A stretch of 64,000 bases of DNA from Nocardioides pelophilus (GTDB lineage: Bacteria > Actinomycetota > Actinomycetes > Propionibacteriales > Nocardioidaceae). The translations under genes were made by a program, and so were the position numbers. Position 1 is the first letter of the stretch, and every line of letters starts with the position of its first letter. Below, in pieces: positions 8,779-27,927 of the stretch. The notes under the pieces were generated by a model. It was not told where the DNA came from. It worked only from the letters and a program-made list of their open reading frames with translations, and made no database searches. The stretch lies in assembly GCF_014180685.1 (NCBI RefSeq), contig NZ_JACEHF010000004.1, positions 1-64,000 on the forward strand, read 5' to 3'.

Positions 8779-8805
8779 CTGTCCGTCCCCTGTCCCACTC
8801 CTGTC
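8779..8805 (-). promoter_or_regulatory. Triple 11-nt direct repeat upstream of the MFS gene
   Basis: CTGTC occurs at 8779, 8790 and 8801, exactly 11 bases apart; read in the direction of the MFS gene this is (G)GACAG three times. The nearest repeat is about 69 bases from the start codon. Heptamers spaced by 11 bases are the classical arrangement of SARP binding sites. The same element is found at 8855, 15718, 20559 and 27910. Confidence 0.65.
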
Positions 8806-8854
8806 GCCACGAAGCCGGCCCCGGATGGTCGCCAGCCCCGGGTTCATGCAGCGC

Positions 8855-8881
8855 GACAGTCTGCGGACAGCGTCAGGACAG
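8855..8881 (+). promoter_or_regulatory. Triple 11-nt direct repeat upstream of the CopZ-like gene
   Basis: GACAG at 8855, 8866 and 8877, a perfect 11-base period, in the same orientation relative to the chaperone gene as the element at 8779 has to the MFS gene. The last repeat ends 95 bases before the ATG at 8977. Confidence 0.65.
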
Positions 8882-8976
8882 TGGACCTCCCCATCGTTCT
8901 TCCCACGGGGTACTGCCGGCGTGACGACACGTCTCGACCAGTGCGCCTTCCATCCGCGACAGACAAGGAATTTCCC

Positions 8977-9186
8977 ATGACCAGTAGCAACTTCACCGTG
9001 GTCGGCATGACGTGCAACAGCTGCGCGATGACGGTGACCGAGGAAGTCACGCAGGTCCCCGGCGTCCAGGACGTCGCCGTCGAGCTCTCGACGGGACGTA
9101 TCACCGTCACGTCGGACTCCGACCTCGACCCGGCCCTGATCAAGGGTGCCGTCGAGGAGGCCGGCTACCAGCTGGCTGCCGGTTGA
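8977..9186 (+). CDS. CopZ-like copper chaperone, 69 aa
   Basis: A single HMA domain: MTSSNFTVVGMTCNSCAMTV with the metal-binding CxxC at residues 13 and 16, then the conserved PGVQDVAVELSTGRITV strand-turn-strand and a C-terminal AAVEEAGYxL-like helix (here GAVEEAGYQLAAG). It would bind Cu(I) in the cytoplasm and deliver it to CopA (11886-14207). ATG 8977 has AAGGAA seven bases upstream. A 13-bp terminator hairpin follows, so it is probably transcribed alone from the repeat-bearing promoter rather than from a copper-responsive operator; I see no CsoR-like palindrome in front of it. Confidence 0.88.
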   Translation: MTSSNFTVVGMTCNSCAMTVTEEVTQVPGVQDVAVELSTGRITVTSDSDLDPALIKGAVEEAGYQLAAG

Positions 9187-9195
9187 GAGCACCTG

Positions 9196-9232
9196 CCGGT
9201 CCCTTCCTGCCACCCGTCCAGGAAGGGACCGG
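9196..9232 (+). terminator. Hairpin terminator after copZ
   Basis: A perfect 13-bp inverted repeat (CCGGTCCCTTCCT / AGGAAGGGACCGG) with an 11-base loop starts nine bases after the stop codon and is followed by a C/T-rich stretch. Confidence 0.75.
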
Positions 9233-9267
9233 CCCCCCTCTTGCCGCTCCCACCACAAGGACATCCG

Positions 9268-9360
9268 ATGACTTCCTCACCTCAGCCCGGCGCAGGAGCT
9301 GATCTGTCGACCACCCGACTCCAGGCGCCGTGCACCGGCCGCGAGCGAGGCGTCTCATGA
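9268..9360 (+). CDS. Possible 30-aa leader ORF coupled to the FAD reductase
   Basis: ATG 9268 follows a ribosome site (AAGGA, seven bases before) and opens a 30-codon frame that ends in an ATGA overlap with the start of the FAD reductase at 9357. The peptide has no recognisable domain. The good ribosome site and coupled stop suggest that ribosomes reach the reductase start through this ORF. It may be a leader, a degenerate gene front, or chance; comparison with related strains would decide. Confidence 0.35.
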   Translation: MTSSPQPGAGADLSTTRLQAPCTGRERGVS

Positions 9361-10613
9361 CCGTCGCATCGGTCGTCATCGTCGGCGCGGGTGCAGCCGG
9401 CACGGCCGCCGCAACCCAGCTGCGAACGCTCGGGTTCGACGGCGACCTGACTCTCGTGCACGGAGAGGGGCCCGTTCCCTACAACCGGACCGCGGTGAAC
9501 AAGACCCTGTTGCAGCCCGACGCCAGGCTCGAGTCCGTGCGTACGGTCCTCCCGGACGATGCCCCCACCGTGCTGCTCACCGGCCGCGCCCAGGGGCTGG
9601 ACATCCCACGCCGAGCGGTCGTCCTGCAGGACGGCAGCCGCCTCTCCTATGACGCTGCGATCATCGCCACAGGCGCGCGGCCACGTCTGCTTCCAGCACG
9701 CGTGGGAGGCCTCGACGGCCCCGCGCTCAGTGGTCTGGTCACGCCGCTGCGCACCTCCGACGATGCCGACCACATCCGGCGACTCCTGGCCGATGTCGGC
9801 AGGAGGCACGAGCGTCCGGCGCGGGTGGGCATCGTGGGCGCGAGCCTGCTTGGCTCCGAGACGGCCGACGTCCTGACGACCTTGGGGCATGAGGTCTTCC
9901 TGATCGGCGCCGCGGCCGACCCCATGGCCCGACGGTTGGGCACCACCATCGCGAGGTGGGTCCGGAAGCGGCACGAGGAACACCTCGCCGGCCTCATCGA
10001 GGCCCGCGTCGACTCGCTCGAGGTGGCCGGCGACGGCCTCCGGCTCGCCCTGAGCAACGGCACAGGCCTGACCGTGGACCTGGTCATCGAGGCACTCGGG
10101 GTCGACCCCGACGTGGACTGGCTGCGCGACTCCCCGCTGGCGCTCGACGACGGCGTGCTCGTGGACGACCGTCTGCGCGCCGTGAACGTCGAGGGGGTGT
10201 ACGCCGCCGGGGACCTCGCTCGGGTCGAGGGGTCGACGCGGATCGAGCACTGGGGCCATGCGTTGGCGCAGGGAGCCCACGTCGCCCGCACCGTCAGCCA
10301 CGACCTGCGACGGACCGAGGACCCGGGGCCGTTCGGTCCCAGCGGTTCCTACTCGACGTGGTTGTACGGCAAGGCCATCAACGTCCTCGGCTCGCCGTGC
10401 CCCCGACGTGACCGGGAGGTCGTCCTGGCGCCGCCAGGGCACGAGACGCACGTCACCGTCTTCACGAGCGCAGAACACCGCGTGAGCGCGGCGGTGACGC
10501 TGGGTTCGGCGAAGCTGGCCAATCGGCTGCGACCACTGGTCGTGGCCCGCGCGGCGGTCGAGGAGGTCGCCGACGTGGTGACCGCCACACTGAGCCCCAC
10601 GTCGGGCGTGTGA
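9357..10613 (+). CDS. FAD-dependent NAD(P)H oxidoreductase (ferredoxin-reductase type)
   Basis: A cytoplasmic pyridine-nucleotide-disulfide-family flavoprotein of 418 residues, resembling reductases that feed Rieske or P450 ferredoxins. Seen: FAD site VVIVGAGAAGTAAATQLR near residues 6-23, the NAD(P)H site RVGIVGASLLGSETADVL near 155-172, and the second FAD motif GVYAAGDLA near 281. There is no CxxC redox disulfide. The start is ATG 9357, overlapping the small ORF stop. No ferredoxin or oxygenase partner is adjacent, so its electron acceptor is unknown; it may serve a partner elsewhere, or act in redox defence alongside WrbA. A bidirectional terminator follows. Confidence 0.85.
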   Translation: MTVASVVIVGAGAAGTAAATQLRTLGFDGDLTLVHGEGPVPYNRTAVNKTLLQPDARLESVRTVLPDDAPTVLLTGRAQGLDIPRRAVVLQDGSRLSYDAAIIATGARPRLLPARVGGLDGPALSGLVTPLRTSDDADHIRRLLADVGRRHERPARVGIVGASLLGSETADVLTTLGHEVFLIGAAADPMARRLGTTIARWVRKRHEEHLAGLIEARVDSLEVAGDGLRLALSNGTGLTVDLVIEALGVDPDVDWLRDSPLALDDGVLVDDRLRAVNVEGVYAAGDLARVEGSTRIEHWGHALAQGAHVARTVSHDLRRTEDPGPFGPSGSYSTWLYGKAINVLGSPCPRRDREVVLAPPGHETHVTVFTSAEHRVSAAVTLGSAKLANRLRPLVVARAAVEEVADVVTATLSPTSGV

Positions 10614-10711
10614 CCACCGCGCGAGCCCTCCATGATCTTCAGCGCGGCCACACGCTGCGCTGATCCCTGCCGCCGCGGTGCCCCCCTAGCTGCGCGGCAG
10701 GCCCCCCAGAA

Positions 10712-10745
10712 GGCGCCGTCCGGGTCACCCGACCCGGGCGGCGCC
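10712..10745. terminator. Bidirectional terminator between convergent genes
   Basis: Two 15-base arms (GGCGCCGTCCGGGTC / GACCCGGGCGGCGCC) with one mismatch and a 4-base loop lie between the plus-strand reductase and the minus-strand YbaK gene, and can serve both. Confidence 0.7.
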
Positions 10746-10758
10746 GAGGTCTGCGGGC

Positions 10759-11238
10759 TCACCCGGCGTCGGGTGCCTGTCGTGCCGTGACGTCGGCGAC
10801 GGGGGCGGACAGCGCCCGGACGACGTCACCCGCGTCAGCCGAGGCGCTCACCCCGTGCGCGCCTGCACCGATCGAGATGGTCCCGCGGACCCGGACGTCG
10901 GCGACGACGGGCCACGCATGCAGTGCGCCGAACGGGGTGATCGTGCCGCGCTCGTATCCGGTCACGTCTCGAGCGGTCTCGGCGTTGGGCATCGAGAGGC
11001 GGCTGACGCCGAGGAGGGCGCGCAGCTTGGGCCAGCTGATCTGCCGGTCCCCGGGGACCAGGATGAACAGGTAGTCGTCCTCGCCACGACGCACGACCAG
11101 TGTCTTGACAACCTGGTTCGGGGCCACGCCGCGGGCGCTCGCGGCCTCGACGAGAGAGCTCACGGGACCGTGACGAACGATCGTGTGGTCGATGCCGGAC
11201 AATTCGAGCGCCGCCCTGGCGCGTTCCTCACTCATCAT
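10759..11238 (-). CDS. YbaK/ProX-type aminoacyl-tRNA deacylase
   Basis: A trans-editing enzyme of 159 residues that hydrolyses mischarged tRNA (Cys-tRNA(Pro) or Ala-tRNA(Pro) in characterised relatives). Seen: N-terminal helix, VVKTLVVRRGEDDYLFILVPGD with the conserved lysine of the YbaK domain near residue 44, and the C-terminal GTITPFG and GAGAHGVS-type elements. It is the last gene of a short minus-strand run; its start overlaps the stop of the PGPGW membrane protein by 11 bases. Whether it acts on Cys or another residue cannot be judged from the sequence. Confidence 0.85.
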   Translation of the reverse strand: MMSEERARAALELSGIDHTIVRHGPVSSLVEAASARGVAPNQVVKTLVVRRGEDDYLFILVPGDRQISWPKLRALLGVSRLSMPNAETARDVTGYERGTITPFGALHAWPVVADVRVRGTISIGAGAHGVSASADAGDVVRALSAPVADVTARQAPDAG

Positions 11239-11725
11239 GACCCCTCCTCCTCGGTTCGACGGACGACGCCTGCGCGACCGCGGTCAGCCTTCCGGGTGCT
11301 CCGCGGAACCGCCGGTAGCTGTAGCCCAGCAGGGCAAGCGCGACGGCCGTCGAGGCCAGCTGCGTCACACCGACGACCACGCCCCCCGGTAGCCACCAGG
11401 TCTCTGTCAGCGGCCACCACAGGGGTGCCGGAGGTGACGCGATCCAGATGATGCCCGCCGAGAGGACAAGGGCTGCACCCCCGATGGACACGGTGAGGCG
11501 CGGCCAGGTGGCAACACTCCGTGCGGCCCCCTCGAGGGCGCGCAACCGGACCCATCCGACGCGGCGCTCGGCCCAGGCGTACTGGCGCGAGAGCAGCATC
11601 AGTCCGGCGAACGTGATCAGGAGGCCCGGCCCGGGCAGCGGGATCGCCGCCAGTCCTCCGACCAACAACAGCCAGCCGGCCGTCTCGCGCAACACTCTCT
11701 CCGCGGCGCGGACGACTCGTGTCAT
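11228..11725 (-). CDS. PGPGW-type small membrane protein (TIGR02611-like)
   Basis: A 165-residue protein with an amphipathic N-terminus, a helical pair containing the motif IPLPGPGLLITFAGLMLLS, and two further hydrophobic segments near residues 75-95 and 110-135. The PLPGPG motif is characteristic of the PGPGW/TIGR02611 family of actinobacterial membrane proteins of unknown function. ATG 11725 is chosen because the upstream 26-codon ORF stops there (TGATG). It is translationally coupled to the YbaK gene. Confidence 0.75.
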   Translation of the reverse strand: MTRVVRAAERVLRETAGWLLLVGGLAAIPLPGPGLLITFAGLMLLSRQYAWAERRVGWVRLRALEGAARSVATWPRLTVSIGGAALVLSAGIIWIASPPAPLWWPLTETWWLPGGVVVGVTQLASTAVALALLGYSYRRFRGAPGRLTAVAQASSVEPRRRGHDE

Positions 11726-11805
11726 CACGCGCCCCCGACGACGCTGCACCGCCGGCGGGGGGCTGTCGTGGTACCCGGGACAGGGGTCTTCGTGGTCGTT
11801 GCCAT
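11725..11805 (-). CDS. Possible 26-aa leader ORF ahead of the PGPGW gene
   Basis: ATG 11805 has a strong ribosome site (GAGGAGG, seven to eight bases upstream) and a 26-codon frame, Thr-rich then Arg-rich, ending in a TGATG overlap with the PGPGW start. There is no similarity I recognise. The ribosome site is better than that of the downstream gene itself, which suggests real translation. Confidence 0.35.
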   Translation of the reverse strand: MATTTKTPVPGTTTAPRRRCSVVGGA

Positions 11806-11885
11806 GGCAGGGGCCTCCTCGGCGCCCGGGGGATCGGGTCTCGTCCGGGGCGGCGTCGGAGAGTGGACGGCGTCGCCGGGATGGG

Positions 11886-14207
11886 TCAGGTGGCGGCCGG
11901 CTGGGCGGGCCGCGCCGGGGTGGTGGTCGGCGCGGCCGGGGTGTCAGTGGCTCGGCTCCTGAACGAGCGCAGCTGCAGGCTGTTGCCGACGACGAAGACG
12001 CTGGAGAACGCCATCGCGGCGCCGGCGAGCATCGGGTTGAGCAGCCCGAGGGCGGCCAGCGGGATCGCTGCGACGTTGTACCCGAAGGCCCAGAACAGGT
12101 TGGTCTTGATCGTTCCGAGGGTCTTGCGTGAGAGGCGGATCGCGTCGGCTGCGCTGCGCAGGTCTCCGCGGACCAGGGTGATGTCGGCGGCCTCGATGGC
12201 CACGTCGGTGCCGGTGCCCATGGCCAGGCCGAGGTCGGCCTTGGCGAGGGCCGCGGCGTCGTTCACACCGTCGCCGACCATGGCGACCACCTTCCCCTGG
12301 GCCTGCAGCTTGGTGATGACGTCGACCTTGTCCTGGGGCATGACCTCTGCAATCACTTCCTCGATGCCGACTTCGGCGGCGATCTGTTCGGCGACGGCAC
12401 GGTTGTCACCGGTAAGCAGGATCGGGGTCAGGCCCAGGGACCGCAGCTGTGCGATCGCCTCGTAGCTGGTCGCCTTGACCTGGTCTGCCACCACCAGGAC
12501 GCCCCGTGCTTGGCCGTCCCAGCCAACGGCGACGGCGGTCTTGCCCTGCGCCTCAGCGTTCGCCTTGGCGCGTGCGAGGTCGATGTCGAGGTGCTGTGAC
12601 CAGTCGGCCAGCAGCGTCTCGCGTCCGACGAGGACCGCGTGTCCGTCCACGATGCCCTGGACGCCCTTGCCTTCGACGTTCGCGAAGTCCTCAGGGGTGG
12701 GCAACTGCCCGACTTCCTGGACCGCTCCCTTGGCGATGGCCTGGGCGATGGGGTGCTCGGAGGCGTCCTCGAGGGCACCGGCCAGGCGGAGCAGCTCCCC
12801 GCGGGAGACGCCGTCGGCGACGAACACGTCGACCAGGGTCATCTTGCCGGTCGTGACGGTGCCGGTCTTGTCCAGCACGATCGTGTCGACCTTGCGGGTC
12901 GACTCCAGCACCTCGGGGCCCTTGATGAGCACACCCATCTGGGCACCGCGGCCGGTGCCGACCAGCAGGGCGGTCGGCGTGGCAAGGCCCAGCGCGCACG
13001 GGCAGGCGATGATGAGCACTGCGACCGCCGCGGTGAAGGCGGCGCTGACCGGGAATCCCGCGCCGAGCCAGGCCGCAAGTGTGGCCACCGCGATGCCGAT
13101 CACGATCGGCACGAAGATGCCCGAGACCTGGTCGGCGAGGCGCTGGACCTGCGCCTTGCCGGACTGGGCGTCCTCGACGAGCTTGGCCATGTGGGCCAGT
13201 TGGGTGTCGGACCCGACCCGGGTGGCTTGCACGACGAGGCGTCCGCCCGCGTTGACGGTGGCGCCGGTGACGGGGTCACCCTCGCCCACCTCCACCGGCA
13301 CCGATTCGCCGGTGAGCATGGAGGCGTCGACTGCGGAGGTGCCGGAGACGATGACGCCGTCGGTGGCGATCTTCTCGCCGGGACGGACCACGAACTCATC
13401 GCCCTCGGTGAGCTCGGCGGTGGGGATGCGAACCTCGACGCCGTGGCGCATGACGGCCACGTCCTTGGCGCCGAGCTCGAGCAGGGCCCGCAGCGCGGCA
13501 CCGGCCTGTCGCTTGGATCGCTTCTCGAAGTAGCGGCCAGCGAGCAGGAACATGGTGACGCCGGCGGCGACCTCGAGGTAGATGTTCGCGGCGCCGTCGG
13601 TGGGCTTCACTGTCAGCTCGAAGGGGTGCGTCATGCCGGGGGTGCCGGCGGTGCCGAGGAACAGTGCGTACAGCGACCACAGCAGCGCCGAGAGGGTGCC
13701 GAGCGAGACCAGCGTGTCCATGGTCGCGGCGCCGTGCCGCAGGTTGGTCCACGCTGCGCGGTGGAAGGGCCAGGCCGCCCAGAGCACCACGGGTGCTGCC
13801 AGCGTCAGTGACGCCCACTGCCAGTAGTCGAACTGGAACGCGGGGATCATCGACAAGGCGATGACGGGCACCGCGAGGGCCACTGAACCGAGGAGGCGCT
13901 GTCGCAGGGCGAGGAGCTCCGTGTCGGGCTGCTCGTCCCCCGACGCGTCCGCGTCGGGGGCAGCGTCCTTGCTGCGGGGCAGAGTGGCGGTGTAGCCGGC
14001 CTTGGCCACCTCGGCGATGAGGGCCGCGGTGTCCACCCCCTCGGGGGCCAGGACCTGCGCCTTCTCGGTGGCGTAGTTGACGGTGGCGGTGACGCCATCG
14101 AGCTTGTTGAGCTTCTTCTCGATCCGCATCGCGCAGGAGGCACAGGTCATCCCGCCGATCGCGAGCTCGATGCTGGTGCCCAGGTTGGGGGCCGGGTGCG
14201 CAGTCAT
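11886..14207 (-). CDS. copA: CopA-like Cu(I)-exporting P1B-type ATPase
   Basis: An inner-membrane ATPase pumping Cu(I) out of the cytoplasm, 773 residues. Domains: one N-terminal HMA domain with MTCASC (cysteines 22 and 25), eight predicted helices, the TGES actuator loop, the ion-binding CPC at 402-404, the phosphorylation site DKTGT at D446, an ATP-binding region with an HP dipeptide (SEHPIAQAI) and GDGVND. The start is ATG 14207 with GAAGGAAG upstream; the long 5' extension of the frame is the antisense image of the neighbouring gene. It is the last gene of an operon with the HMA remnant and the secreted copper-associated protein, behind two CsoR-like operators. The gene symbol is by function. 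Confidence 0.93.
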
Positions 14208-14235
14208 GGGTTCTTCCTTCGGTGTGCGATGTGCG

Positions 14236-15243
14236 TCAGTGGTCGTGGCCGTCGCCGGACTCGGCGTCGGTGTCGGGCTCCGTGACCGCGTGCGTCGGCT
14301 CGGAGTGGCCGTCCTCGGCGGTGGGGAGGCCGGCTGTGTCGACGACGAACGGGGCGCTGTGGACCTCGCCGTCGACCTTGAAGTCCAGGTAGAGCAGGTA
14401 GCGGCCCGGGGTGGGTGCCTCGGCGATGAAGCCGATCTCTGGGCCGGACTCCTCGCCCGCGGCCGGCTCGTCGCCTTCGGGGTGGACGTGCAGGAAGGCC
14501 AGGTCGCCCTCACGCAGCGCGACCAGGTGGCCGAACGCACCCAGGTAGGGCTCGAGGTCGGTGACCGGGGACCCGTCCCTCGACACGACGAAGGTGAGGT
14601 CGGAGCCTGATCCGGGGGCCACCTCACCTCTGAGCTCCACGCGGTACCCGCTGACGGTCGCGGTGCTGGCCGGCGCGGCGGGTGCGGGGGTGAGCCGGCC
14701 GGCCACGTCGACCGTGCGAGTCAGCGTGATGGTCTCGACTGCTCCGTCCGTCTCCGGGACGAAGTCGGCATAGACGCGGTAGGTGCCGGCCGAGGTCCAG
14801 CTCCAGGGCAGCGACCACGTGCCGTCGTCATCCATCGTGGGGTGCACGTGGCGGAACCGGGTCCCGTCGGTGCGGACGACGATCAGGTGCATCCGCTTCT
14901 CGTGCGAGGTGGCGAAGCGCGTCACGCCCGTGCCGTCCGCGTCGAGGATCCGGAACGACAGCTTCCCGGCCCGGTCGACAGCGCTGGGGGCAGCGACGGG
15001 GGAGAGCAGGTAGCCGTTCTGTGCGCTGGTGACGCCTGGGGCGGCGGCGTCGGTCTGGGACGGTCCGCTCGAGCCGTGGCCCCCGGGGCCGCTCGTGGTG
15101 CCGTTCATGGTGTGCCCGCCGGCTTCGTCGGTCCAGCTGTCGACCGTGCTCGCGGGCACGACGGCGTCTGCCGCGACGAACGCGCCGCCGAAGACGAGGG
15201 CCAGCCCGGCGCCGTAGGCCCCCAGGCGGACGGGGGTGCTCAC
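14236..15243 (-). CDS. Exported copper-locus protein with His/Met-rich linker
   Basis: A 335-residue protein with a signal-like or anchoring hydrophobic segment at residues 5-27, then a Gly/Ser/His-rich linker (residues 40-65, including HTMNG and GGHGSSG), two beta-rich repeats that each contain an HVHP motif ([10 protein letters not shown] and FLHVHPEGD), and a His/Asp-rich end (DGHDH). Proteins of this layout accompany CopA in many actinobacteria and probably bind copper outside the membrane; that role is inference from context. The GTG start overlaps the stop of the upstream 33-codon remnant (GTGA). Length and repeats appear intact. Confidence 0.7.
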
Positions 15244-15465: not shown

Positions 15466-15648
15466 TCAACGATTGCTGCGCCAGATCACGCCCATGCGTG
15501 GGTCGCCGGGGAGCACGGCGAGGGTCCCGATCGCGCCGGGACGGTTCAGGCGGAAGACGCGGGCGTCGTGGGTGTGGCGGGTGGCCCTGCGGGCCTGGGC
15601 GCCGCGTCGTGACTCGTGCACGACGAAGGCTGCGTAGATCTCGTTCAT
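15466..15648 (-). CDS. Small basic hypothetical protein, 60 aa
   Basis: ATG 15648 begins a 60-residue frame (MNEIYAAFVVHESRRGAQAR...) rich in Arg and His, ending 45 bases before the copper operators. An AAAGG lies upstream at a long spacing. I do not recognise a family. The case for a real gene is its promoter: a perfect 11-base-period repeat sits 70 bases upstream, at the same distance as at three other genes of this block. It could be a small regulator or a decayed gene. Confidence 0.5.
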   Translation of the reverse strand: MNEIYAAFVVHESRRGAQARRATRHTHDARVFRLNRPGAIGTLAVLPGDPRMGVIWRSNR

Positions 15649-15717
15649 GGCGGTGCGTTGCCTTTCGGAGGGGGACGGGTGCGTGCCATGACTGTGGCCC
15701 GCCCGGGTTGCCGTCCC

Positions 15718-15735
15718 CTGTCCCAACGCTGTCCT
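15718..15735 (-). promoter_or_regulatory. 11-nt direct repeat upstream of the 60-aa ORF
   Basis: CTGTCCC at 15718 and CTGTCCT at 15729, period 11, oriented as GGACAG towards the 60-aa ORF and beginning 70 bases upstream of its ATG. A weaker third repeat may precede it. It belongs to the same set as the elements at 8779, 8855, 20559 and 27910. Confidence 0.6.
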
Positions 15736-15886: not shown

Positions 15887-18800
15887 GTGGACGTGCGCTT
15901 CCGGCTGTTGGGACCGATGGAGATCCTCGTCGAGGGCTGCCCGGTAGGGATGCCCGGCGCTGCCGAGCGCGCGGTCCTGGTTCAGCTCCTGCTGTCCCCC
16001 GGGCGGACGATCCCGGCGACCATGCTGGTGGACCGGCTCTGGTCGGAGTCGTCGCTTCCCCAGGATCCGATGAACGCCCTGCAGATCCGGGTCTCGAAGC
16101 TACGACGCAGTCTCAAGGCGGTCGGTGTGCCTGAGGTGGTCACGCGCGAAGGCGTGGGCTACCGCGCGAACGTCGATCCCCGGTCGGTCGACGCCGTCGA
16201 CTTCGTTGCCCGCGTGCGGGAGGCGAGGGCGCGATCCGAGGCGGCGGTGGACGGGGCTGACGCGGCCTCGCTGGACGCGTACGACGAGGCCCTGGCCTTG
16301 TGGCAGGGCGACGCACTGGCCGACTTCGCAGCCGAGCAGTGGGCGATGGTCGAGGCCGCTCGGTTCTCCAAGCTCAGGCTGGCCGCGCTCACCGAACGTG
16401 CTCAGGTCGCGCTGGCGCTCGGCCGCCACGCGGAGGTGGTCGCGGACCTCGATCCTCTGGTGGCGCATGATCCGACCCTCGAGTCGCTCACCGGGCTGCT
16501 CATGGTCGCTCTGTACCGCAGTGGGCGACAGACGGAGGCGCTCGAGGCGTATCGGCGCACCCGCGACGTCCTGGATGAGTCCTTGGGGCTCGAGCCCTCC
16601 TTGACGCTGCGGTCCCTGCACGAACGCGTGCTCCGGCAGGACGAGGCGCTGGGCTCACTACCCGACCTGACCCCGGCGTCCGTGGCGGTGTCCCGCGTCG
16701 TCCCGGCCGAGAAGGTCGGGACTGCGCCCACCAACCTGCCGACGGTGGTGCGTCCGCTGATCGGCCGCGACGCACAACTCGACTCACTCGGAGAGCTCGT
16801 CCTCGGCACGCGCCTGCTGACGCTGATCGGCCCCGGCGGTGCCGGCAAGACATCCTTGGCGCTCGCCGCCGTGGTGCGAACCTCCGAGGCCTTTCCGGAC
16901 GGCGCTTTCGGGGTCCGCCTCGCCTCCGTCGACATGCCCGACGAGGTGCCACTGGCGGTGGCCGACGCCCTGGGCGTGCCTCTCGACGGAGCGGCGGGGG
17001 ACCGTGACGTGCGCGAACGAGTGGTCTCGTACCTGGTCAGACGCCGACTCCTGCTGCTGGTCGACAACTGCGAGCACGTCATCGACGCCGCTGCCGGTCT
17101 CATCGACCAGATCCTCAGCAGGTGCCCTGACGTCACGATCCTGGCGACGAGCCGTGAGGCTCTCGCGATCCCCGACGAGGTGCAGGTGACGGTGGGCCCT
17201 CTGGGGACGCCGCCGGACGGCACCCCCGCCGGGGACGTCCTGCTGTACCCGGCCGCGCAGCTGTTCGTCGAGCGGGCCCGGTCGGTGCGGCCCGGGACGG
17301 TCTTCGGGGACGAAGACCTCGCTGCGATCGGTCGCATCACTCGCGCTCTCGACGGCATCCCACTCGCGCTGGAGCTTGCCGGCGTTCGGGTGGCGACGAT
17401 GTCGCCCGTCGAGATCGCTGGCCGCCTGGACCAGCGGTTCGCGCTGCTCACGACGGGGGCGCGCACCGCCGAAGCCCGGCAGCAGACGCTCCGCGCGACC
17501 GTCGACTGGAGCTACGCCTTGCTCACCGAGCGGGAGCAAACCGTCTTCAACCGGCTCGCCGTCTTCCAGGGAGGATGGAGCCTGAGCGCGTCGGAAGCCG
17601 TGGTGACCGACCCCGCTCTCGCGACAGGTGAGGTGCTGGACACCCTCGGCCGGCTGGTCGAACGCTCGATGGTGGTGGTCGACCGAGGGGCATCGACCCG
17701 CTACCGGATGCTGGACACCCTGCGCCACTACGCCGCCGAGCAGCTGGTCGCTTCCGGTGAGCACGAGGCCGTGGCGCAGCGGCATGCGGAGCACTTCCGT
17801 GACGTCGTCCACGACGCCGAGTCCCGCCTGCGCGGCCACGACCAGCGTGAGACCTTCCAACGGCTCCGCGACGAGCAACCCAACATCAGGGCTGCGCTCG
17901 CCTGGCTGGGCCGGCCGGGTGGCGATCTCGACTCGGCACTCGAGACGGCCGGTGCCCTCGGGCTCTTCTGGCACCTCGGGCGCCACCTCGAGGGCCGCGA
18001 GGTCTTGTCCCGCCTGCTCGAGTCGGGCGAGGGCAGCCCGTCCTCGCGGGCCCGTGCCCTGCAGGCGGTCTCCCTGGTGGAGCGCCCTCGCGCGTGCCTC
18101 GTGCACCCGAGTCCGCGCTGCGCCGAGACCGCCCGGGAGAGCCTGGCGATCTTCGACGCCCTGGGCGATGGCTCCCGTGCCGCCCTCTCACGCGTCCTCC
18201 TGGCCGTCGAGGGCGTCACCGGCCAGGACCCCGACCAGGCCGAGGACCTGCTGTGCAAGGCCGAGGCACAGTTCGCCGCCGACGGTGACGCCTGGGGCGG
18301 CGGCGTCGTCGGCTTCGTACGCATGGAGACCGCCCTCAAGAACGGGAACGAGACGGCTGCGGTCCCCATCGGGCGCGCGACCTCCGCGACGTTCCGGCAC
18401 CTCGACGATCCGTGGGGCCTGTCCGCGATCCTCTACCACCTCGGCTGGGGGCTGCGGCAGTTCGGCCGCTACGACGAAGGCTCACGTGCTCTCGAGGAGG
18501 CGATCGACGTGGCGGCCGGGGCCGGCCTCTACAACACCGTCCAGTGGGCGCTGGCCGACCTGGCGATCGCTCAGCTCCACCTCGGCGACCAGGAGGCCGC
18601 TCGAAGCCTCCTGGACCGGGCGAGCGCCGCGTCGGAGCACGTCGGTGACGGGGCCGGCGCCGTCCTCGCCTGCTACGGCCACGGGCTCGTCGCCCAGGTC
18701 GGCCAGGAGTGGGGCCTGGCACGCGAGCGGTACGCGGAGTCGTACGCCGGCTTCGGCGCGCTCGGCACGCCTGTGTCCCAGGGCCTCGCGCTCGCCGGCC

Positions 18801-19087
18801 TGGCCCGGTGGGACGAAGCTGCGGGCGACGCGACCGCTGCCGGTCGCCGGTACGACGAGCTGCTCGAGCTCAGCCGCAGGATCGGCGAGCCGGGGCTCAC
18901 CAGCACGGCGCTGGAGGGACTGTGCCGGCTCGCCTCGGCGCGTGGGGACAGAGACCTTGCTGCCGGCCTGCTCGCCGAGGCCTCCCGCCTGCGGATCTCC
19001 TCGTCCCGACCACGCCCGCCGCACGAGGAGCGTGACCTCGCGGCCGCCGTCGCCGACCTCACGCCGGACTCCGTCGCAGGAGTCTGA
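15887..19087 (+). CDS. AfsR/SARP-type giant transcriptional regulator 2
   Basis: A 1066-residue regulator: winged helix (VRFRLLGPMEILVEG from residue 3), transcriptional activation domain (about 105-250), STAND ATPase with Walker A GPGGAGKT at 315-322 and LLLVDNCEH as Walker B, then a TPR-like helical half from about residue 600. The GTG 15887 follows GAGGAGAG. It is a second AfsR-like protein, related to but clearly distinct from the one at 3.0-6.1 kb. It stands downstream of a 200-base region with a repeat facing the other way. The likely role is ATP-dependent activation of nearby promoters in response to an unknown ligand. Confidence 0.88.
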   Translation: MDVRFRLLGPMEILVEGCPVGMPGAAERAVLVQLLLSPGRTIPATMLVDRLWSESSLPQDPMNALQIRVSKLRRSLKAVGVPEVVTREGVGYRANVDPRSVDAVDFVARVREARARSEAAVDGADAASLDAYDEALALWQGDALADFAAEQWAMVEAARFSKLRLAALTERAQVALALGRHAEVVADLDPLVAHDPTLESLTGLLMVALYRSGRQTEALEAYRRTRDVLDESLGLEPSLTLRSLHERVLRQDEALGSLPDLTPASVAVSRVVPAEKVGTAPTNLPTVVRPLIGRDAQLDSLGELVLGTRLLTLIGPGGAGKTSLALAAVVRTSEAFPDGAFGVRLASVDMPDEVPLAVADALGVPLDGAAGDRDVRERVVSYLVRRRLLLLVDNCEHVIDAAAGLIDQILSRCPDVTILATSREALAIPDEVQVTVGPLGTPPDGTPAGDVLLYPAAQLFVERARSVRPGTVFGDEDLAAIGRITRALDGIPLALELAGVRVATMSPVEIAGRLDQRFALLTTGARTAEARQQTLRATVDWSYALLTEREQTVFNRLAVFQGGWSLSASEAVVTDPALATGEVLDTLGRLVERSMVVVDRGASTRYRMLDTLRHYAAEQLVASGEHEAVAQRHAEHFRDVVHDAESRLRGHDQRETFQRLRDEQPNIRAALAWLGRPGGDLDSALETAGALGLFWHLGRHLEGREVLSRLLESGEGSPSSRARALQAVSLVERPRACLVHPSPRCAETARESLAIFDALGDGSRAALSRVLLAVEGVTGQDPDQAEDLLCKAEAQFAADGDAWGGGVVGFVRMETALKNGNETAAVPIGRATSATFRHLDDPWGLSAILYHLGWGLRQFGRYDEGSRALEEAIDVAAGAGLYNTVQWALADLAIAQLHLGDQEAARSLLDRASAASEHVGDGAGAVLACYGHGLVAQVGQEWGLARERYAESYAGFGALGTPVSQGLALAGLARWDEAAGDATAAGRRYDELLELSRRIGEPGLTSTALEGLCRLASARGDRDLAAGLLAEASRLRISSSRPRPPHEERDLAAAVADLTPDSVAGV

Positions 19088-20311: not shown

Positions 20312-20485
20312 TCAGCTGGCGCGGGCGAGAGGGGGAAGGGCAGCGGCTCGCGCGGTACCGCACCGTGGGCAGTGGCCCGAGCGGACGTGCTCGAGGTCCT
20401 GGCCGCACCAGCAGTGCGGCGGGATCAGGTTCGATCGGACGGCTCCGGTCGAACGGGTCGTGGGCGTCAGGCTGGTCGTGTTCAT
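20312..20485 (-). CDS. Small zinc-ribbon-like protein, 57 aa
   Basis: ATG 20485 opens a 57-residue frame with CWCGQDLEHVRSGHCPRCG, a CxC plus CxxC arrangement suitable for one zinc ion, preceded by a Thr/Ser-rich N-terminus. No enzymatic domain is present. The promoter carries an 11-base-period repeat starting 74 bases upstream, which supports it as an expressed gene of the same regulon as the exporters and the SARP operon. The role is unknown; a protein- or nucleic-acid-binding adaptor is possible. Confidence 0.55.
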   Translation of the reverse strand: MNTTSLTPTTRSTGAVRSNLIPPHCWCGQDLEHVRSGHCPRCGTARAAALPPLARAS

Positions 20486-20558
20486 CTGGCTCACCGCCTC
20501 GGTTGGCTGTGGTCGAGTTGGCCACACAAGAACGGTCGGGCATGCCGCTTGCTCTCGA

Positions 20559-20576
20559 CTGTCCGTCGCCTGTCTT
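20559..20576 (-). promoter_or_regulatory. 11-nt direct repeat upstream of the Zn-ribbon ORF
   Basis: CTGTCCG at 20559 and CTGTCTT at 20570, period 11, read as GGACAG/AGACAG towards the 57-aa ORF. It lies between that ORF and the end of the SARP-led operon. Confidence 0.6.
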
Positions 20577-20631: not shown

Positions 20632-21666
20632 TCAGGGATGTGCTCGCGCCGCGGGCGCGGAAGAGCACAGTTCCTCGACACGTCCGGTCTCGGCGGGACC
20701 TGCAGGTCCCTGCGGACCGACGGCGCTGCGGCCGATTCCTTCGCCCGGGATGCCGGAGCACGTCGGAAGGTCGTCGTCGCAGCAGGGGTCGATCGTTGCG
20801 CGGCGACGCGTCACCAGCCGCCCGATCGCGGGCTGCCCGGCAAGGGCTCCGCCGAGGACCAGGGCCATCCCCATGGCGGTGGTGTACCTGAACTCCTCGC
20901 CCCCGATGATGACGCCCAACGCCGTCGCCACGACGGGGTTGACGAGTCCGATGAGGGCGACCGTGCCTGCCGGCAGATGCGTGAGGCCGTGGAACCAGCA
21001 CAGATAGGCCCCAATGGTTCCCACGATGCTCATCCACAGCAACCCGGCGATCGAGCCGGCACCCACGGGCGGCGGCCGTCCCTCGAAGACGAGGGCAAGA
21101 GGCAGGAGCGCGAGTCCTCCGGCGACCAGCTGCCAGGACACCAGGGTCACCATGTCCACGGGGGCGGGCCATCGCTTGATCAGGACGAACCCCAGGGCTG
21201 CGGCCACCACGGATCCGACAGCGGCGAGCACTCCGACGGGCTCGACGGAGCTCCCGCCGTTGAGGACGAGCACGGCGACGCCCACCAGGCCGACGATGCT
21301 TGCTGCGGCCCGGCTCCAACCGGGCGTCTCGCGGAGCAGGATCCACGCCAAGGCCATCACGACGATCGGTGATGTGGCCGTGATCGTGGACGCGACGCCG
21401 CCGGGCAGGTGGAAGGCTGCCAGGAACACCAACGAGAAGAAGGCCGTGAAGTTGAGCAGGCCGAGCAAGGCCGCCCGGAACCACCACACGCCTGTGGGCA
21501 GCTTCCGACGCAACGCCAGCAGGACGAGTCCGGCCGGCAGGGCGCGGATCAGCGCGGCGTACAAGGGGTGGTCGGCAGGAAGAAGCTGGCCTGCGACGAT
21601 GTACGTCGACCCCCACGCCGCGGGCGCGACGAGGGTTATCACCGAAGCGCGGGCCTGCGGGGTCAT
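20632..21666 (-). CDS. EamA/DMT-family transporter, end of the SARP-led operon
   Basis: A ten-helix membrane transporter of 344 residues: WGSTYIVAGQLLPADHP near residue 18, LPGGVASTITATSPIVVMAL near 90, and LCWFHGLTHLPAGTVALIGLVNPVVATALG in the second repeat. The last helix ends near residue 275; the following 65 residues are hydrophilic and include CCDDDLPTC. It probably exports a small molecule. It is the last gene of a nine-gene minus-strand run, 49 bases after the SRPBCC gene. It resembles the EamA at 2119-3156. Confidence 0.85.
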   Translation of the reverse strand: MTPQARASVITLVAPAAWGSTYIVAGQLLPADHPLYAALIRALPAGLVLLALRRKLPTGVWWFRAALLGLLNFTAFFSLVFLAAFHLPGGVASTITATSPIVVMALAWILLRETPGWSRAAASIVGLVGVAVLVLNGGSSVEPVGVLAAVGSVVAAALGFVLIKRWPAPVDMVTLVSWQLVAGGLALLPLALVFEGRPPPVGAGSIAGLLWMSIVGTIGAYLCWFHGLTHLPAGTVALIGLVNPVVATALGVIIGGEEFRYTTAMGMALVLGGALAGQPAIGRLVTRRRATIDPCCDDDLPTCSGIPGEGIGRSAVGPQGPAGPAETGRVEELCSSAPAARAHP

Positions 21667-23704: not shown

Positions 23705-23708
23705 GTGC

Positions 23709-24640: not shown

Positions 24641-25062
24641 GATGCGTCCCCCGACTCCTCGAAGACGGTGATCTGGAGTCCGGCCGGAGCATCCAGTCGT
24701 GCGTTGACAGACCCCCAGGGTGTGACCGTGGGTGGTGCGACGAGCTCGGCACCGGCTCGGACCAGCTCCTCGGTGACGGTTGCCGCATCCGCGACCTCGA
24801 ACGCCACTCTCACGTGCGGGCTCACCCGGTGCCCGACTTCGACCCGGTCGATCATGTCCACCTGGGCCGGGTTGGAGATCTCGAGCGTGGCGCGTCCTAC
24901 GTCGAGGATCGTGACGTGCTCGCCCGCCTCCGAGTGGATCTGGAGCTCCTCGCCCGCACCCAGGGCGTCGCGATAGAAGGCGAGGGCCTCGTCATAGTCG
25001 TCGGCCTCGACGACGACTCGCATCTGGAGGACCTGGTGTCGTGGTGATCGGGTGGTGGCCAT
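24637..25062 (-). CDS. VOC-family (glyoxalase/bleomycin-resistance fold) protein
   Basis: A 141-residue protein with two beta-alpha-beta-beta-beta modules: MRVVVEADDYDEALAFYRDALG first and VRVAFEVADAATVTEELVRAGAELV second. The fold occurs in metal-dependent dioxygenases, glyoxalases and drug-binding resistance proteins. Possible metal ligands are few (E and H in EELQIHSEAGEHVTI), so a binding rather than catalytic role is possible. It is in the operon between the PhzF-like and isochorismatase-like genes; its stop overlaps the latter's start. Confidence 0.82.
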   Translation of the reverse strand: MATTRSPRHQVLQMRVVVEADDYDEALAFYRDALGAGEELQIHSEAGEHVTILDVGRATLEISNPAQVDMIDRVEVGHRVSPHVRVAFEVADAATVTEELVRAGAELVAPPTVTPWGSVNARLDAPAGLQITVFEESGDAS

Positions 25063-25090
25063 CAGTGTGTTCCTGTCTGGTGGAGGGTGG

Positions 25091-26005
25091 TCACAGGACC
25101 CTGCGGGCGTCGTCGTCGCTCGGCATCTCGGTCGCCTCGCCGCTCACAGCGACGCCGTCCTGACCAGGCCGCAGCTCGACCGTCAGCTCACTCGGTGTGC
25201 CGAGGTCGTGCCCCTGGTGGATGGTGAGCGTGGCGGGGGGTCGGCTGTGGCCGATCTGGCGCAGGTACCCGCCGAATGCTGCGGCAGCAGCCCCGGTCGC
25301 CGGGTCCTCCACGACGCCGCCCGGTGGGAAGGGGTTGCGCGCGTGGAAGACGACATCGGATTCTGCCCAGAACACGTTCACCGTCGTCCATGACGCGACG
25401 TCCATCAGTCGGGCGAGTGCCGGGTAGTCGTAGGTCATGGCGGCCAGCGTGTCTCGCGAGCCGACCCCCAGCATGAGGTGGTGGTTCCCAGCGAAACCGA
25501 CCTGCGCAGGGAACCGCGGGTCGAGGTCCTCGACGGTCCACCCGAAGGCGTCCAGGGCGGGCTCCAGCTCGGCGGGGGTGGCGGGGCGGCTGCTGGCGGG
25601 GGGCGAGGTCAGCGTCGCGCCCGTGTGCCCGCCGGCCGTCCAGGTGCTGATGACCACCGGTCCCACGTGCGTGGAGAGATGGAGCTCTCCGGGACCGTGC
25701 CTGTCGGCCACGGCAGCAGCGGATGCGACGGTCGCGTGGCCGCAGAACGCGACCTCGGCCAACGGGCTGAAGTACCTGATCCGTGCCGCCTGGATCCCGC
25801 TCGTGGGGGCGCGCCCGTCGCCGGGCCGGGGGTCGGCGGGGGAGTCCTCGGGGAACAGGAAGGCGGTCTCCGAGTACCCGACGACCTGGGCGATCCGAAG
25901 CATCTCGGCGTCGGTGAGCCCGTGGGCGTTTAGGACGACGCCCGCCGGGTTCCCCCCACGTCCTTGGTGCGTGAAGGCGCTGTAGTGCAGCACGTGTGCG
26001 GTCAT
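25091..26005 (-). CDS. PhzF-family epimerase/isomerase
   Basis: A 304-residue protein of the PhzF/diaminopimelate-epimerase fold. Seen: GRGGNPAGVVL near residue 17, the conserved glutamate in YSETAFLF near residue 50, FCGHATVA near residue 85 and DPATGAAAAAFGGYL in the C-terminal half. The founding member isomerises dihydro-hydroxyanthranilate in phenazine synthesis, but most relatives are unassigned. No other phenazine genes are nearby. The ATG at 26005 overlaps the stop of the CPBP gene; the longer 5' frame is shadow. Confidence 0.85.
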   Translation of the reverse strand: MTAHVLHYSAFTHQGRGGNPAGVVLNAHGLTDAEMLRIAQVVGYSETAFLFPEDSPADPRPGDGRAPTSGIQAARIRYFSPLAEVAFCGHATVASAAAVADRHGPGELHLSTHVGPVVISTWTAGGHTGATLTSPPASSRPATPAELEPALDAFGWTVEDLDPRFPAQVGFAGNHHLMLGVGSRDTLAAMTYDYPALARLMDVASWTTVNVFWAESDVVFHARNPFPPGGVVEDPATGAAAAAFGGYLRQIGHSRPPATLTIHQGHDLGTPSELTVELRPGQDGVAVSGEATEMPSDDDARRVL

Positions 26006-26811
26006 CGTTCGTTCCTCTCGTTCAGGTGCGCGCTGTCCCGGTTCTTCATCGCCACGAGAGCGAGGAGGCCGAAGGCGAGGGTGACCAGGTAGCGGATCCA
26101 GTCGTAGTCGGCGTCGAGCAGCTCGCCCGACGCGTTGAAGGTGGCGTGCAGCAGTGCAAGCGTCAGGATGGAGCGCCTGCCCCACGTGTCGAAGGCGCCG
26201 AGGAGGAGCCGGAGCCCGACCCCGGCGACCAAGAGCCCGGCGAGGTTCTCGCCCAGGTCAGCAGCATCGTCGATGTCGTAGAAGGCGAGCGGGAGGTGGA
26301 TGCCCACGAACAGGACCGCCGTGGCGAGGCTTCCGCGCAGGTATCCCCATCGCGCCATGGTCCGCCGCTGCACGAAGCCGGCCCAGACCATCTCCTCCCA
26401 GAGATTCACGATCAGCAGGGAGGCAGCCACGTTCCCCAGCGCGAGCGAGACGACGAACCCCACGTCGAGGCCGGCCTGCTGGTCGAAGGCTCGAGCCGCC
26501 AGCCAGGTGCCGGCCGGGATGAGCAGCAGTGCCGGGATCAGCAGGATCCGGGGCCGGGGGAGGCGGAAGCAGTCGCGGAAGAGCTGGCGGCCATCCGCTC
26601 CGGGGTCGCGCCTCACCAGGAGGACCGTCGGCAGGACCAGGCCGAGAACCAGGGTGCCGAGGACGAACGGCTCGACGGGGACGTCGACGAACAAGGGGAT
26701 GGACAGGAGCACCCAGCCGACGGGAAGGGCGATGGCGACGAACGCCTTCAGGAGAGCGAGGTCGTCGGCCTCCCGAGCGGCGACGGATGCTGTGCGCTTC
26801 ATGTGTCTCAT
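26002..26811 (-). CDS. CPBP-family intramembrane protease-like protein
   Basis: A membrane protein of 269 residues with about seven helices. The CPBP motifs are present: paired glutamates in NLWEEMVWAGFVQRR, FVGIHLPLAF, and LLHATFN near the end. The arginine normally found at the fourth position after the EE pair is an alanine here (EEMVWA), so proteolytic activity is not certain. Relatives include Rce1-type proteases and bacteriocin self-immunity proteins, which fits an operon concerned with a toxic compound. The ATG at 26811 overlaps the SARP stop by four bases. Confidence 0.78.
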   Translation of the reverse strand: MRHMKRTASVAAREADDLALLKAFVAIALPVGWVLLSIPLFVDVPVEPFVLGTLVLGLVLPTVLLVRRDPGADGRQLFRDCFRLPRPRILLIPALLLIPAGTWLAARAFDQQAGLDVGFVVSLALGNVAASLLIVNLWEEMVWAGFVQRRTMARWGYLRGSLATAVLFVGIHLPLAFYDIDDAADLGENLAGLLVAGVGLRLLLGAFDTWGRRSILTLALLHATFNASGELLDADYDWIRYLVTLAFGLLALVAMKNRDSAHLNERNER

Positions 26812-27842
26812 GCTGTTCGTGCCACCTTGGGTCTCGGTTGGTCTGCCGTTGGGGCTCTGCCTGTCAGCGAGGTGGGGCCGAGCACGAGATCGCGTCGGGT
26901 CAGCGACTCGATCAGGATCGTGGCGTGCAGGGTCAGTTGCTGAAGCGTGTCGATCAGGGACGCCAGGGACGACTCCGTGACTGCGAGGCCGGCGAGTGGA
27001 CTCGGCGGTGTGAGGTCCAGGTGGGGTTCGTGGTTCAGGATCGAACCGACCAGCTGGTCCAGTCCCGGACCGGGGTCGATGCCGAGCTGGTCCCTGAGGA
27101 GGGCCCGGCACCGTCGGTGCACGTCGAGTGCCTCGGCCGAGCGCCCGCCCCGGTGCAGCGCGAGCATCAGCAGCTCGTAGGGGGGTTCGCGCAGCGGTTC
27201 GTCACGCACCAGCGCCTCCAACAGGGGGACGGCCTCCTCGTGCCGACCGGTCTCGACCATCGCGCGCAGCAGACCTTCGCGAGCGGAGGTCCGCAGCTCA
27301 GTGAGCTCGGCGATCAGCGCTGTGGCGACGTCGTGTGCGGCCAGCTCGATCACGGGCTGCCCGCGCCAGAGCTGGAGCGCCGCCCCGTAGGCGAGCGCTG
27401 ACTCCTCGGGGCGGCCGGCCCGCATGTGCGAGAAGCCCGAGGAGATCAGGCGGCGGAAGCGCACGACGTCGAGGGCGTCGTCCTCCACCTCCAGGCCGTA
27501 GCCCGAGCTCGTCGTGATGAGCCTGGCCGAGGCGGTCGGGTGCTCTGCGAGCCGTTTGCGCAGGTGGAAGACGTAGGAACGCAGCGTCACCAGGGCGCCT
27601 GGCGGGGGATGGCCGTCCCACAGCTGGTCGGCAAGCTGGTCAGCCGGCAGCACGGTGTTGGCGTGCACGGCGAAGAGCGCCATCAGGGTGCGCTGTCGAC
27701 GGCTGGTGAGGTTGAGCTCGTGGCCGCCGGCGCGGACCCGGAGCGGTCCGAGCAGGTCGATGGTCACGGCGGCGGCATCGACGTCCTCGGTGGCGCAGCT
27801 GGCGAGATGACGTCCAGGCGCGGTGGTACGCATGTCAGGCAT
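26808..27842 (-). CDS. SARP-family regulator heading a nine-gene operon
   Basis: A short SARP of 344 residues: winged helix (TIDLLGPLRVRAGGHELNL from about residue 26, recognition-helix region LVTLRSYVFHLRKRL) and activation domain with tandem helical repeats up to about residue 275. A C-terminal helical tail of 65 residues has no ATPase. SARPs typically switch on antibiotic clusters by binding heptamers 11 bases apart and recruiting RNA polymerase. Exactly such repeats precede its own gene (27910-27927) and four other promoters in this block, so autoactivation and control of the regulon is a natural hypothesis. The downstream genes overlap or nearly touch down to 20632. Confidence 0.88.
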   Translation of the reverse strand: MPDMRTTAPGRHLASCATEDVDAAAVTIDLLGPLRVRAGGHELNLTSRRQRTLMALFAVHANTVLPADQLADQLWDGHPPPGALVTLRSYVFHLRKRLAEHPTASARLITTSSGYGLEVEDDALDVVRFRRLISSGFSHMRAGRPEESALAYGAALQLWRGQPVIELAAHDVATALIAELTELRTSAREGLLRAMVETGRHEEAVPLLEALVRDEPLREPPYELLMLALHRGGRSAEALDVHRRCRALLRDQLGIDPGPGLDQLVGSILNHEPHLDLTPPSPLAGLAVTESSLASLIDTLQQLTLHATILIESLTRRDLVLGPTSLTGRAPTADQPRPKVARTA

Positions 27843-27909
27843 CAGGTTCTCCTGCCGGGGCGGCCGTCCTCGGCGGAACGGCCTGGTGGATCGACCCTCT
27901 CCTCAGGGT

Positions 27910-27927
27910 CTGTCCAAAACCTGTCTC
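27910..27927 (-). promoter_or_regulatory. 11-nt direct repeat upstream of the SARP operon
   Basis: CTGTCCA at 27910 and CTGTCTC at 27921, period 11; towards the SARP gene this reads AGACAG then GGACAG. It starts 68 bases upstream of the ATG at 27842, the same spacing as at 8779 and 15718. Confidence 0.6.

Follow-up and report, generated by a model that had tools for sequence, protein, structure and literature searches.

The window analyzed here is a stretch of 64,000 nucleotides from Nocardioides pelophilus (contig NZ_JACEHF010000004.1, positions 1 to 64,000). Between positions 8779 and 27927, the pentamer GACAG recurs at an exact period of 11 nucleotides (nt) upstream of five genes, and every one of these boxes is oriented toward its gene. 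Three units precede MFS1, which encodes a DHA2-type exporter, and three precede copZ, which encodes a CopZ-like metal chaperone; two units each precede p60 and p57, open reading frames (ORFs) of 60 and 57 amino acids (aa), and the gene for the small regulator SARP3. Two further SARPs, SARP1 and the large SARP2, are encoded in the window (Table 1). The boxes, their period and spacing to a predicted -10 hexamer, their conservation, their co-occurrence with SARP2, and the gene families were established by computation, and SARP2 is proposed as the regulator that reads the boxes.

Architecture of the GACAG boxes

A recount bore out the five places, the copy numbers, and the orientations of the repeats given in a preliminary description of this DNA, as well as the distance of 68 to 74 bases to the start codon for four of the five boxes. 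Measured from its near edge, the box is 69 nt away from the start codon of MFS1, 70 nt from that of p60, 74 nt from that of p57, and 68 nt from that of the SARP3 operon, with copZ (96 nt) being the exception. The 11-nt period also stands, but the hexamer GGACAG, originally named as the repeat unit, is exact in both units in just three of seven adjacent pairs, and the conserved core is GACAG. A scan of the window for GGACAG-N5-GGACAG with up to two mismatches gave no enrichment (15 occurrences versus 11.7 expected, with 19 of 100 shuffles reaching 15), and local counts were therefore based on the exact core; the first scan of the genus had used the exact hexamer. Ten pairs of GACAG in the window lie no more than 60 nt apart, seven of them at a spacing of 11, two at 22, and one at 20. 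The 4.64-Mb genome (343 contigs) holds 13 GACAG-N6-GACAG pairs, and seven of these fall inside this 19 kb (binomial P = 3e-14); a reversed-pattern control of the genome-wide count is void because GACAG is its own mirror.

A predicted -10 hexamer of the form [CG]ANNNT starts exactly 10 nt past the last GACAG at MFS1 (CAGCCT), copZ (CATCGT), and SARP3 (GAGGGT). At p60 and p57, the next unit in the 11-nt register is GCAAC and GCAAG, respectively, and the hexamer (CACAGT and GACCGT) stands 10 nt past that unit. The remaining six genomic pairs overlap long open frames on either strand, and none of the six has a -10. Outside this 19-kb stretch, the genome thus holds no GACAG-N6-GACAG pair with a -10, and the finding that would have spoken against the preliminary description, a similar density of the pattern inside genes or at random promoters, was not obtained.

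The same rule was counted in the window and other SARP2 loci, 34 stretches in all, in which 106 boxes were reduced to 66 nonredundant ones by collapsing near-duplicates (at most 10 differences over 45 places). A [CGT]ANNNT hexamer, mostly SANNNT, lies at offset 10 in 46 of the 54 boxes without a GCAAG-like unit and at offset 21 in 11 of the 12 with a GCAAG/C-like next unit, and any other offset from 2 to 29 gives 0 to 2 matches; the rule had come to light on the window and an early set of loci, all of which are part of the counted set. The 68 more distant loci, inspected once the rule was recognized, contain 21 boxes; 18 conform, 12 of them at offset 10 and 6 at offset 21 after GCCAG. The background is low, with [CG]ANNNT found at offset 10 after 53 of 2245 single GACAG pentamers.

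This geometry is that of SARP promoters, for which PMC10936776 describes direct repeats 11 bp apart, a 3' repeat 8 bp from the -10, and a -35 overlapped by the box. In the boxes described here, which are assigned to SARP2 by co-occurrence, the -10 follows 8 nt past the heptamer when this is written GACAGNN and 9 nt past it when written GGACAGN. A consensus sigma-70 scan of the intergenic stretch between MFS1 and copZ found no match, as expected for promoters without a -35.

Two variants of the element stand apart. A near-identical GACAG-AAAACT-GACAG with a downstream CACCCT or CACTCT occurs in nine genomes (G001, G011, G015, G060, G073, G093, G132, G135, and G232), two of them without SARP2, and is perhaps a separate conserved promoter. 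A GACAG pair facing SARP2 itself is present around 9910 in L114, L116, L117, L118, and L128 and at 538 in L115, which belong to Geodermatophilaceae and one Frankiales metagenome-assembled genome; it has no -10 at offset 10, and autoregulation of another kind is possible.

Co-occurrence of the boxes with SARP2

SARP2 begins with a winged helix and a BTAD domain (Pfam Trans_reg_C, 1.8e-8; BTAD, 1.1e-37), and its C-terminal part contains AAA_22, nSTAND1, and TPR_12. Orthologs (54 to 86%) are found in 17 of 215 genomes of the genus, its own genome counted, and at 53 to 59% in Geodermatophilaceae and Pseudonocardia. In the tree, from which one fragment (L128) and three second copies (L094, L119, and L120) were left out, the 26 rows of the SARP2 clade are joined with support of 100/100; the clade spans three actinobacterial families, or five with its distant relatives.

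The box with its -10 is present in all 17 genomes of the genus that have SARP2, each with at least two sites, and 46 of these 61 sites lie within about 25 kb of SARP2. Among the genomes without SARP2, 32 of 198 have it, with 41 sites altogether (Fisher P = 1e-12 for the co-occurrence, phylogeny ignored). A reversed-pattern control with the -10 added, which is valid, finds 26 sites across all 215 genomes. Twelve ortholog loci (242 kb) contain 60 GACAG pairs at a spacing of 11, spread over 11 of the loci; of the spacings from 6 to 30, the harmonic at 22 gives 12 pairs and all others give 0 to 8. The 11-nt period is therefore kept in related promoters, as the preliminary description would have it, and so is the spacing to the -10.

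The exporter gene was used to check the association a second time. MFS1 orthologs (at least 74%) in all 17 genomes with SARP2 have a same-strand box with a -10 upstream, at 61 to 121 nt in 14 of them and at 355, 372, and 844 nt in G025, G112, and G146, where a gene intervenes. Genomes without SARP2 hold 25 MFS homologs (in 23 genomes), and none of the 13 of these (69 to 71%) that were examined has a box nearby in the 3 to 4.4 kb covered.

The recognition helix of SARP2 was located by alignment to AfsR of Streptomyces coelicolor, in which NALQIRVSKLRR aligns with R87 T88 Y89 A90 S91 R92 L93 R94 K95. According to PMC10936776, AfsR R92 and T88 contact bases; at the T88 and R92 positions, SARP2 has I and K, and its clade has I/L/V and K. 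A box with a -10 is found in 16 of the 17 loci with the helix NALQ[IL]RVSKLRR and in 6 of the 63 with other helices (80 loci; P = 4e-11, the loci not being independent), the single miss being a 9.7-kb contig, L111. If the -10 of afsS is assumed to start at -12, GACAG would occupy positions -27 to -23, the bases that AfsR contacts, where the AfsR box has TT(T/C)A, and the residues that differ would then face the bases that differ.

Comparative evidence thus supports the earlier proposals that a SARP/AfsR protein encoded here may read the box and that the box is unlike the TCGAG-type heptamers, and it narrows the putative reader to SARP2. The preliminary description was probably right about the kind of reader, but its model lacked the fixed -10, the GCAAG/C third unit, and the metal-handling partners. 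It also listed SARP3 among the candidate readers, whereas SARP3, whose operon is indeed among the boxed genes, is more likely a target. Another co-conserved regulator was not seen among the approximately 60 families listed, a weak control given that opposite-frame shadows crowd the list.

Boxes also occur in other settings. L135, L154, L160, L161, L162, and L165 have GACAG boxes with a -10 next to further large SARPs. The helix is QTK[VI]SRLRR in four of these six loci, and in five the box is upstream of and divergent from the SARP gene; the six are read as another subfamily, whose box is identical or related and whose targets differ. Eleven places with a GGACAG pair or array (L081 to L083, L085, and L087 to L093) were considered as SARP2-type loci and excluded from the counts. 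Eight of them have no homolog of a window gene above 55 bits, L090 and L092 have distant MFS homologs only, and L093 has CopA and CopZ homologs at its edge.

Genes behind the boxes

Partners of SARP2 were surveyed in 32 locus groups, 27 from the SARP2 clade and 5 from its distant relatives. MFS1 (at least 71%) and the small HMA chaperone encoded downstream of it are each present in 26 of the 27 clade groups, the chaperone being weak in G011. CopZ occurs in 21 of the 27 clade groups, and three of the five distant ones have it as a gene of its own. CopA occurs in 20 of 27 and in all five (25 of 32 overall), so that, counting the loci of the distant relatives along with those of SARP2, it recurs in five actinobacterial families. 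Among the clade groups, those without CopA are G112, G026, G069, L117, and L128, all long stretches, as well as L111, with an edge fragment only, and L115, on short contigs. Given these seven absences, the most constant unit consists of SARP2, MFS1, and the HMA chaperone, to which most loci add the copper pump.

CopA carries CPC, MxxSS, and an HMA CxxC and exceeds the TIGR01511 cutoff, as a Cu+ P1B-type ATPase should; the gene order suggests that it is transcribed from the p60 promoter. The protein p335 has seven invariant histidines (H114, H119, H132, H134, H239, H252, and H254) and in 11 of 22 loci forms the C-terminal part of a long CopA (1082 aa in L074 and 1091 aa in L114), a gene fusion that ties it to copper export. 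A fold search with p335 found its two Ig-like domains and no specific relative (best Z, 8.6). The 26 HMA chaperone sequences have CRRC (11), CRHC (7), CPRC (5), CRQC (1), or CRDC (1), and one has lost a Cys. A search for metal residues specific to MFS1 gave two internal Met columns only and is uninformative.

SARP3 is followed by genes for CPBP, PhzF, glyoxalase/VOC, isochorismatase, DUF6204, MFS, cyclase, and EamA proteins. With its PhzF, cyclase, isochorismatase, and transporters, this operon could be a small metabolite cluster, whereas the conserved partners of SARP2 are metal-handling genes. As SARP3 lies behind a box, SARP2 would also switch on a second SARP.

Table 1. Features of the window (and, in the last row, of other loci) with coordinates and supporting evidence
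Feature	Position	Strand	Evidence or remark
SARP1	3042..6059		
75-aa HMA chaperone, CxxC type (GMRCRRC), downstream of MFS1	6950..7177	-	Pfam HMA, 45.5 bits (cutoff 24.8)
MFS1, DHA2-type exporter	7259..8710	-	Pfam MFS_1; EmrB-like TIGR00711, 220.9 bits, below cutoff 230.2
Predicted -10 of MFS1 (CAGCCT)	8763..8768	-	10 nt after last unit
MFS1 box (also for chaperone gene behind MFS1)	8779..8806	-	three GACAG units, 11-nt period
copZ box	8855..8881	+	three GACAG units
Predicted -10 of copZ (CATCGT)	8892..8897	+	10 nt after last GACAG
CopZ-like chaperone (HMA domain)	8977..9186	+	Pfam HMA, 59.5 bits; best NCBIfam match is a CopZ model, below its cutoff
Pyridine-nucleotide disulfide oxidoreductase	9330..10613	+	possibly cotranscribed with copZ; adjoins copZ in L112 too
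CopA, P1B-type copper ATPase (CPC, MAFSS), downstream of p60 and p335	11886..14207	-	TIGR01511, 539.4 bits (cutoff 397)
p335, two Ig-like domains, seven invariant His	14236..15243	-	fused to CopA C terminus in other loci
p60, 60-aa ORF, first gene behind its box	15466..15648	-	60 to 63% conserved in L079 and L191
Predicted -10 of p60 (CACAGT)	15691..15696	-	10 nt after third unit
Degenerate third unit GCAAC, p60 box	15707..15711	-	11-nt register
p60 box (by gene order also p335 and CopA)	15718..15734	-	two GACAG units
SARP2, SARP-NB-ARC-TPR regulator, proposed box reader	15887..19087	+	Pfam domains, orthologs, predicted structure
Recognition helix DPMNALQIRVSKLRR of SARP2	16064..16108	+	alignment to AfsR
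Codons H696, H700, C737, H740, C745, candidate metal site	17972..18121	+	alignment invariance
p57, 57-aa zinc-ribbon-like ORF	20312..20485	-	relatives in other SARP2 loci
Predicted -10 of p57 (GACCGT)	20532..20537	-	10 nt after third unit
Third unit GCAAG, p57 box	20548..20552	-	11-nt register
p57 box	20559..20575	-	two GACAG units
SARP3, small SARP, proposed target, heads same-strand gene run	26808..27842	-	Pfam; box upstream
Predicted -10 of SARP3 (GAGGGT)	27894..27899	-	10 nt after last GACAG
SARP3 box	27910..27926	-	two GACAG units
HNGY[YS]AGDFS ORF (other loci)	L079 8193-8375 (-), L191 13405-13587 (-), L078 9498-9590 (-), L194 1952-2044 (+), L074 12150-12230 (+)		

Several smaller observations concern the genes around the boxes. 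A short ORF (about 48 to 61 aa) with the core HNGY[YS]AGDFS lies directly behind boxes in five genomes and possibly encodes a peptide precursor; in the window no such ORF was found, and the box is followed by p60. The zinc-ribbon family of p57 (CWCGQxLExxRxGHCPRCG-like) also occurs in L074, L075, L077, L078, L079, and L194, and its gene immediately follows a box in four of these places (the window and L075, L077, and L079). EamA transporter genes recur beside SARPs: in the window, one overlaps SARP1 (the two together at 2119-6059) and another (20632-21666) precedes p57, and an EamA gene of G146 has its own three-unit box (L200, 13639-14709). The third-position GC is about 0.8 to 0.97 in the regulon stretch (6000-28500) and about 0.96 to 1.0 in most of the right flank (28700-34000), and the lower values might be those of an acquired island; a search of the window for tRNA genes gave none.

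Proposed copper regulon and its alternatives

The GACAG repeats are interpreted, at a probability of roughly three in four, as operators of one local regulon that is read by SARP2 and handles copper (Cu+/Ag+). SARP2 would be a large AfsR-type activator composed of an OmpR-like DNA-binding domain, a BTAD, a STAND NB-ARC ATPase, and a TPR sensor. It would bind two or three GACAG units side by side, one helix turn (11 nt) apart and in place of the -35, and would recruit RNA polymerase to the weak -10 that starts exactly 10 nt downstream. The DHA2 exporter and the small HMA chaperone, present in nearly every locus, would form the core of the regulon, joined in most loci by CopA, CopZ, and the His-rich p335, and p60, p57, and the SARP3-led operon would be strain-specific additions.

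Copper would perhaps act through a histidine-cysteine cluster in the TPR part of SARP2. The predicted structure has a mean pLDDT of 90; its SARP domain superimposes on that of AfsR (8k60) with a Z score of 25.1 and a root mean square deviation of 1.8 Å over 249 residues at 36% identity, and the rest matches Apaf-1, MalT, and STAND proteins with TPR sensors. The sensor part contains the clade-invariant motifs WHxGRH and RPRxCxVHPxxxC, together an HxxxH...CxxHxxxxC cluster and all 30 aligned rows, from 27 distinct proteins, keep H696, H700, C737, H740, and C745. The model places H696 and H700 on either side of a short turn and C737 and H740 within the loop 732-742, while C745 starts the next helix. 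The cluster is a candidate metal site. It is a tentative idea, and rather doubtful as it stands, that SARP2 is itself a cytosolic Cu+ sensor, in which copper bound by the cluster at the start of the TPR superhelix, or delivered by the HMA chaperone, would release the NB-ARC switch and let the SARP domains pair on GACAG.

Several observations weigh against a SARP2-read copper regulon. In the five distant relatives, which also stand beside CopA, the positions of the cluster are occupied by N, R, a gap, Y, and S/T, and MFS1 is absent from all five. Five long clade loci, two of them (L117 and L128) from Modestobacter, have neither CopA nor CopZ, and their boxes serve MFS1 and the HMA chaperone, and no site with the exact full element occurs elsewhere in the genomes G112, G026, and G069. 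L111 encodes a 67% ortholog of SARP2 on a contig without a box; six loci of other SARP subfamilies carry boxes with a -10, so the motif is not exclusive to the clade; and 8 of the 54 boxes mentioned above have no -10, including the one facing SARP2 itself in Geodermatophilaceae. For the window targets MFS1, p57, and SARP3, finally, a role in copper handling is putative.

Some of these points suit a regulon that SARP2 reads in response to another signal, either a different metal or a general stress or xenobiotic stimulus whose targets often include copper genes. This alternative is improbable. In its favor, the most constant partners are MFS1, which resembles drug exporters, and the HMA chaperone, five clade loci do without CopA and CopZ, and some loci have genes for glyoxalase, isochorismatase, and GNAT proteins behind boxes. 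Copper is favored over it by the recurrence of CopA with SARP2 or its distant relatives over five families and by the constant small partner, which is itself an HMA protein.

Other readers of the boxes are far less probable. OmpR-type domains bind 11-nt repeats, so that a response regulator of the OmpR family, of the copper CopR/CutR type or PhoP-like, could in principle read these direct repeats. In Streptomyces, PhoP and AfsR share sites (passages of PMC10972967). Such a reader is nevertheless very unlikely: the 25 window proteins scanned with Pfam include no response regulator, the presence of the element tracks SARP2, and the spacing to the -10 is that of SARP promoters (passages of PMC10936776). 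The chance that an autoregulated SARP3, or SARP1, is the reader appears slimmer still, even though both are true SARPs and SARP3 has a box in its own promoter. SARP3 lacks a close ortholog in 57 other genomes, where its best match is at 40% identity and none among the matches listed exceeds 42%, while the boxes persist. By eye, the recognition helices of SARP1 and SARP3 differ from that of SARP2 at the base-contacting positions. Moreover, SARP2 orthologs are present in every locus group compared, a weak control inasmuch as SARP1 and SARP3 cross-match there as paralogs.

Comparison with known SARP and copper systems

SARPs with 11-nt repeats are of a known kind, and SARP2 is a SARP but not AfsR. 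It shares the domain order and the SARP-domain fold of AfsR, but as an AfsR ortholog it is rejected by NF053617 (189.9 bits versus a cutoff of 1430), and its conserved neighbors are metal-handling genes rather than afsS. In passages of PMC10936776, two 11-bp direct repeats of the afs box replace the -35, and the -10 of afsS is CACTGT; the promoters described here likewise have repeats in place of the -35 and a weak -10 of the same shape. The AfsR box given in passages of PMC10972967, CGTT(T/C)ATCGNN, differs from GACAG in the first two core bases in the assumed register.

The nearest cores met are those of PimR and PapR2. The SARP-LAL regulators PimR, SanG, and PolR have the heptamer CGGCAAG in direct repeats with 4-bp spacers (passages of PMC5930380). 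Its core equals the third unit GCAAG of some boxes here, but in these GCAAG/C occurs only in the promoter-proximal position, after two GACAG units, the regulator is of the SARP-NB-ARC-TPR type, and the targets differ from the polyene and nucleoside antibiotic clusters of those regulators. PapR2 is a small SARP of pristinamycin biosynthesis. Its motif, GTCAGSS in passages of PMC7040171, has a core one base from GACAG.

The targets, in turn, are of the kind found in CsoR systems, which control copZ and copA in actinobacteria, but the operator described here consists of direct repeats laid out as for an activator. CsoR-family genes (PF02583) are present in all 17 genomes with SARP2, four of them in this genome; none matches on the window contig, and among the matches listed the CsoR gene nearest to SARP2 on its contig is about 11 kb away (in G009, beside a second copA). 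With CsoR genes present but off the window contig, SARP2 would run a second copper system.

As far as the literature searched goes, the GACAG box, its mixed form with GCAAG/C, and, most notably, the association of a SARP with genes for copper handling and metal chaperones are new. No paper linking a SARP to copper genes was found among the matches listed from open-license PMC text, an absence that is weak since sequences in figures are not covered by it. The SARP in passages of PMC6436437 is unrelated, being the name of a spot on a yeast gel that disappeared under copper.

The regularity of the box and its -10 allows promoters, start sites, and regulons to be predicted without any data beyond the sequence, and the pairing of recognition helix and box (T88 and R92 in AfsR versus I/L/V and K in the SARP2 clade) helps to read the specificity code of SARPs. 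These proteins are known as activators of antibiotic production, and a clade accompanied by metal chaperones and copper efflux would widen the scope of the family to metal homeostasis and would serve as a model for what large SARPs sense. If SARP2 were itself the copper sensor, the STAND/NLR-like activators would include a metal-sensing member, and copper would activate genes by a route distinct from release of a repressor, MerR-type activators, and two-component systems.

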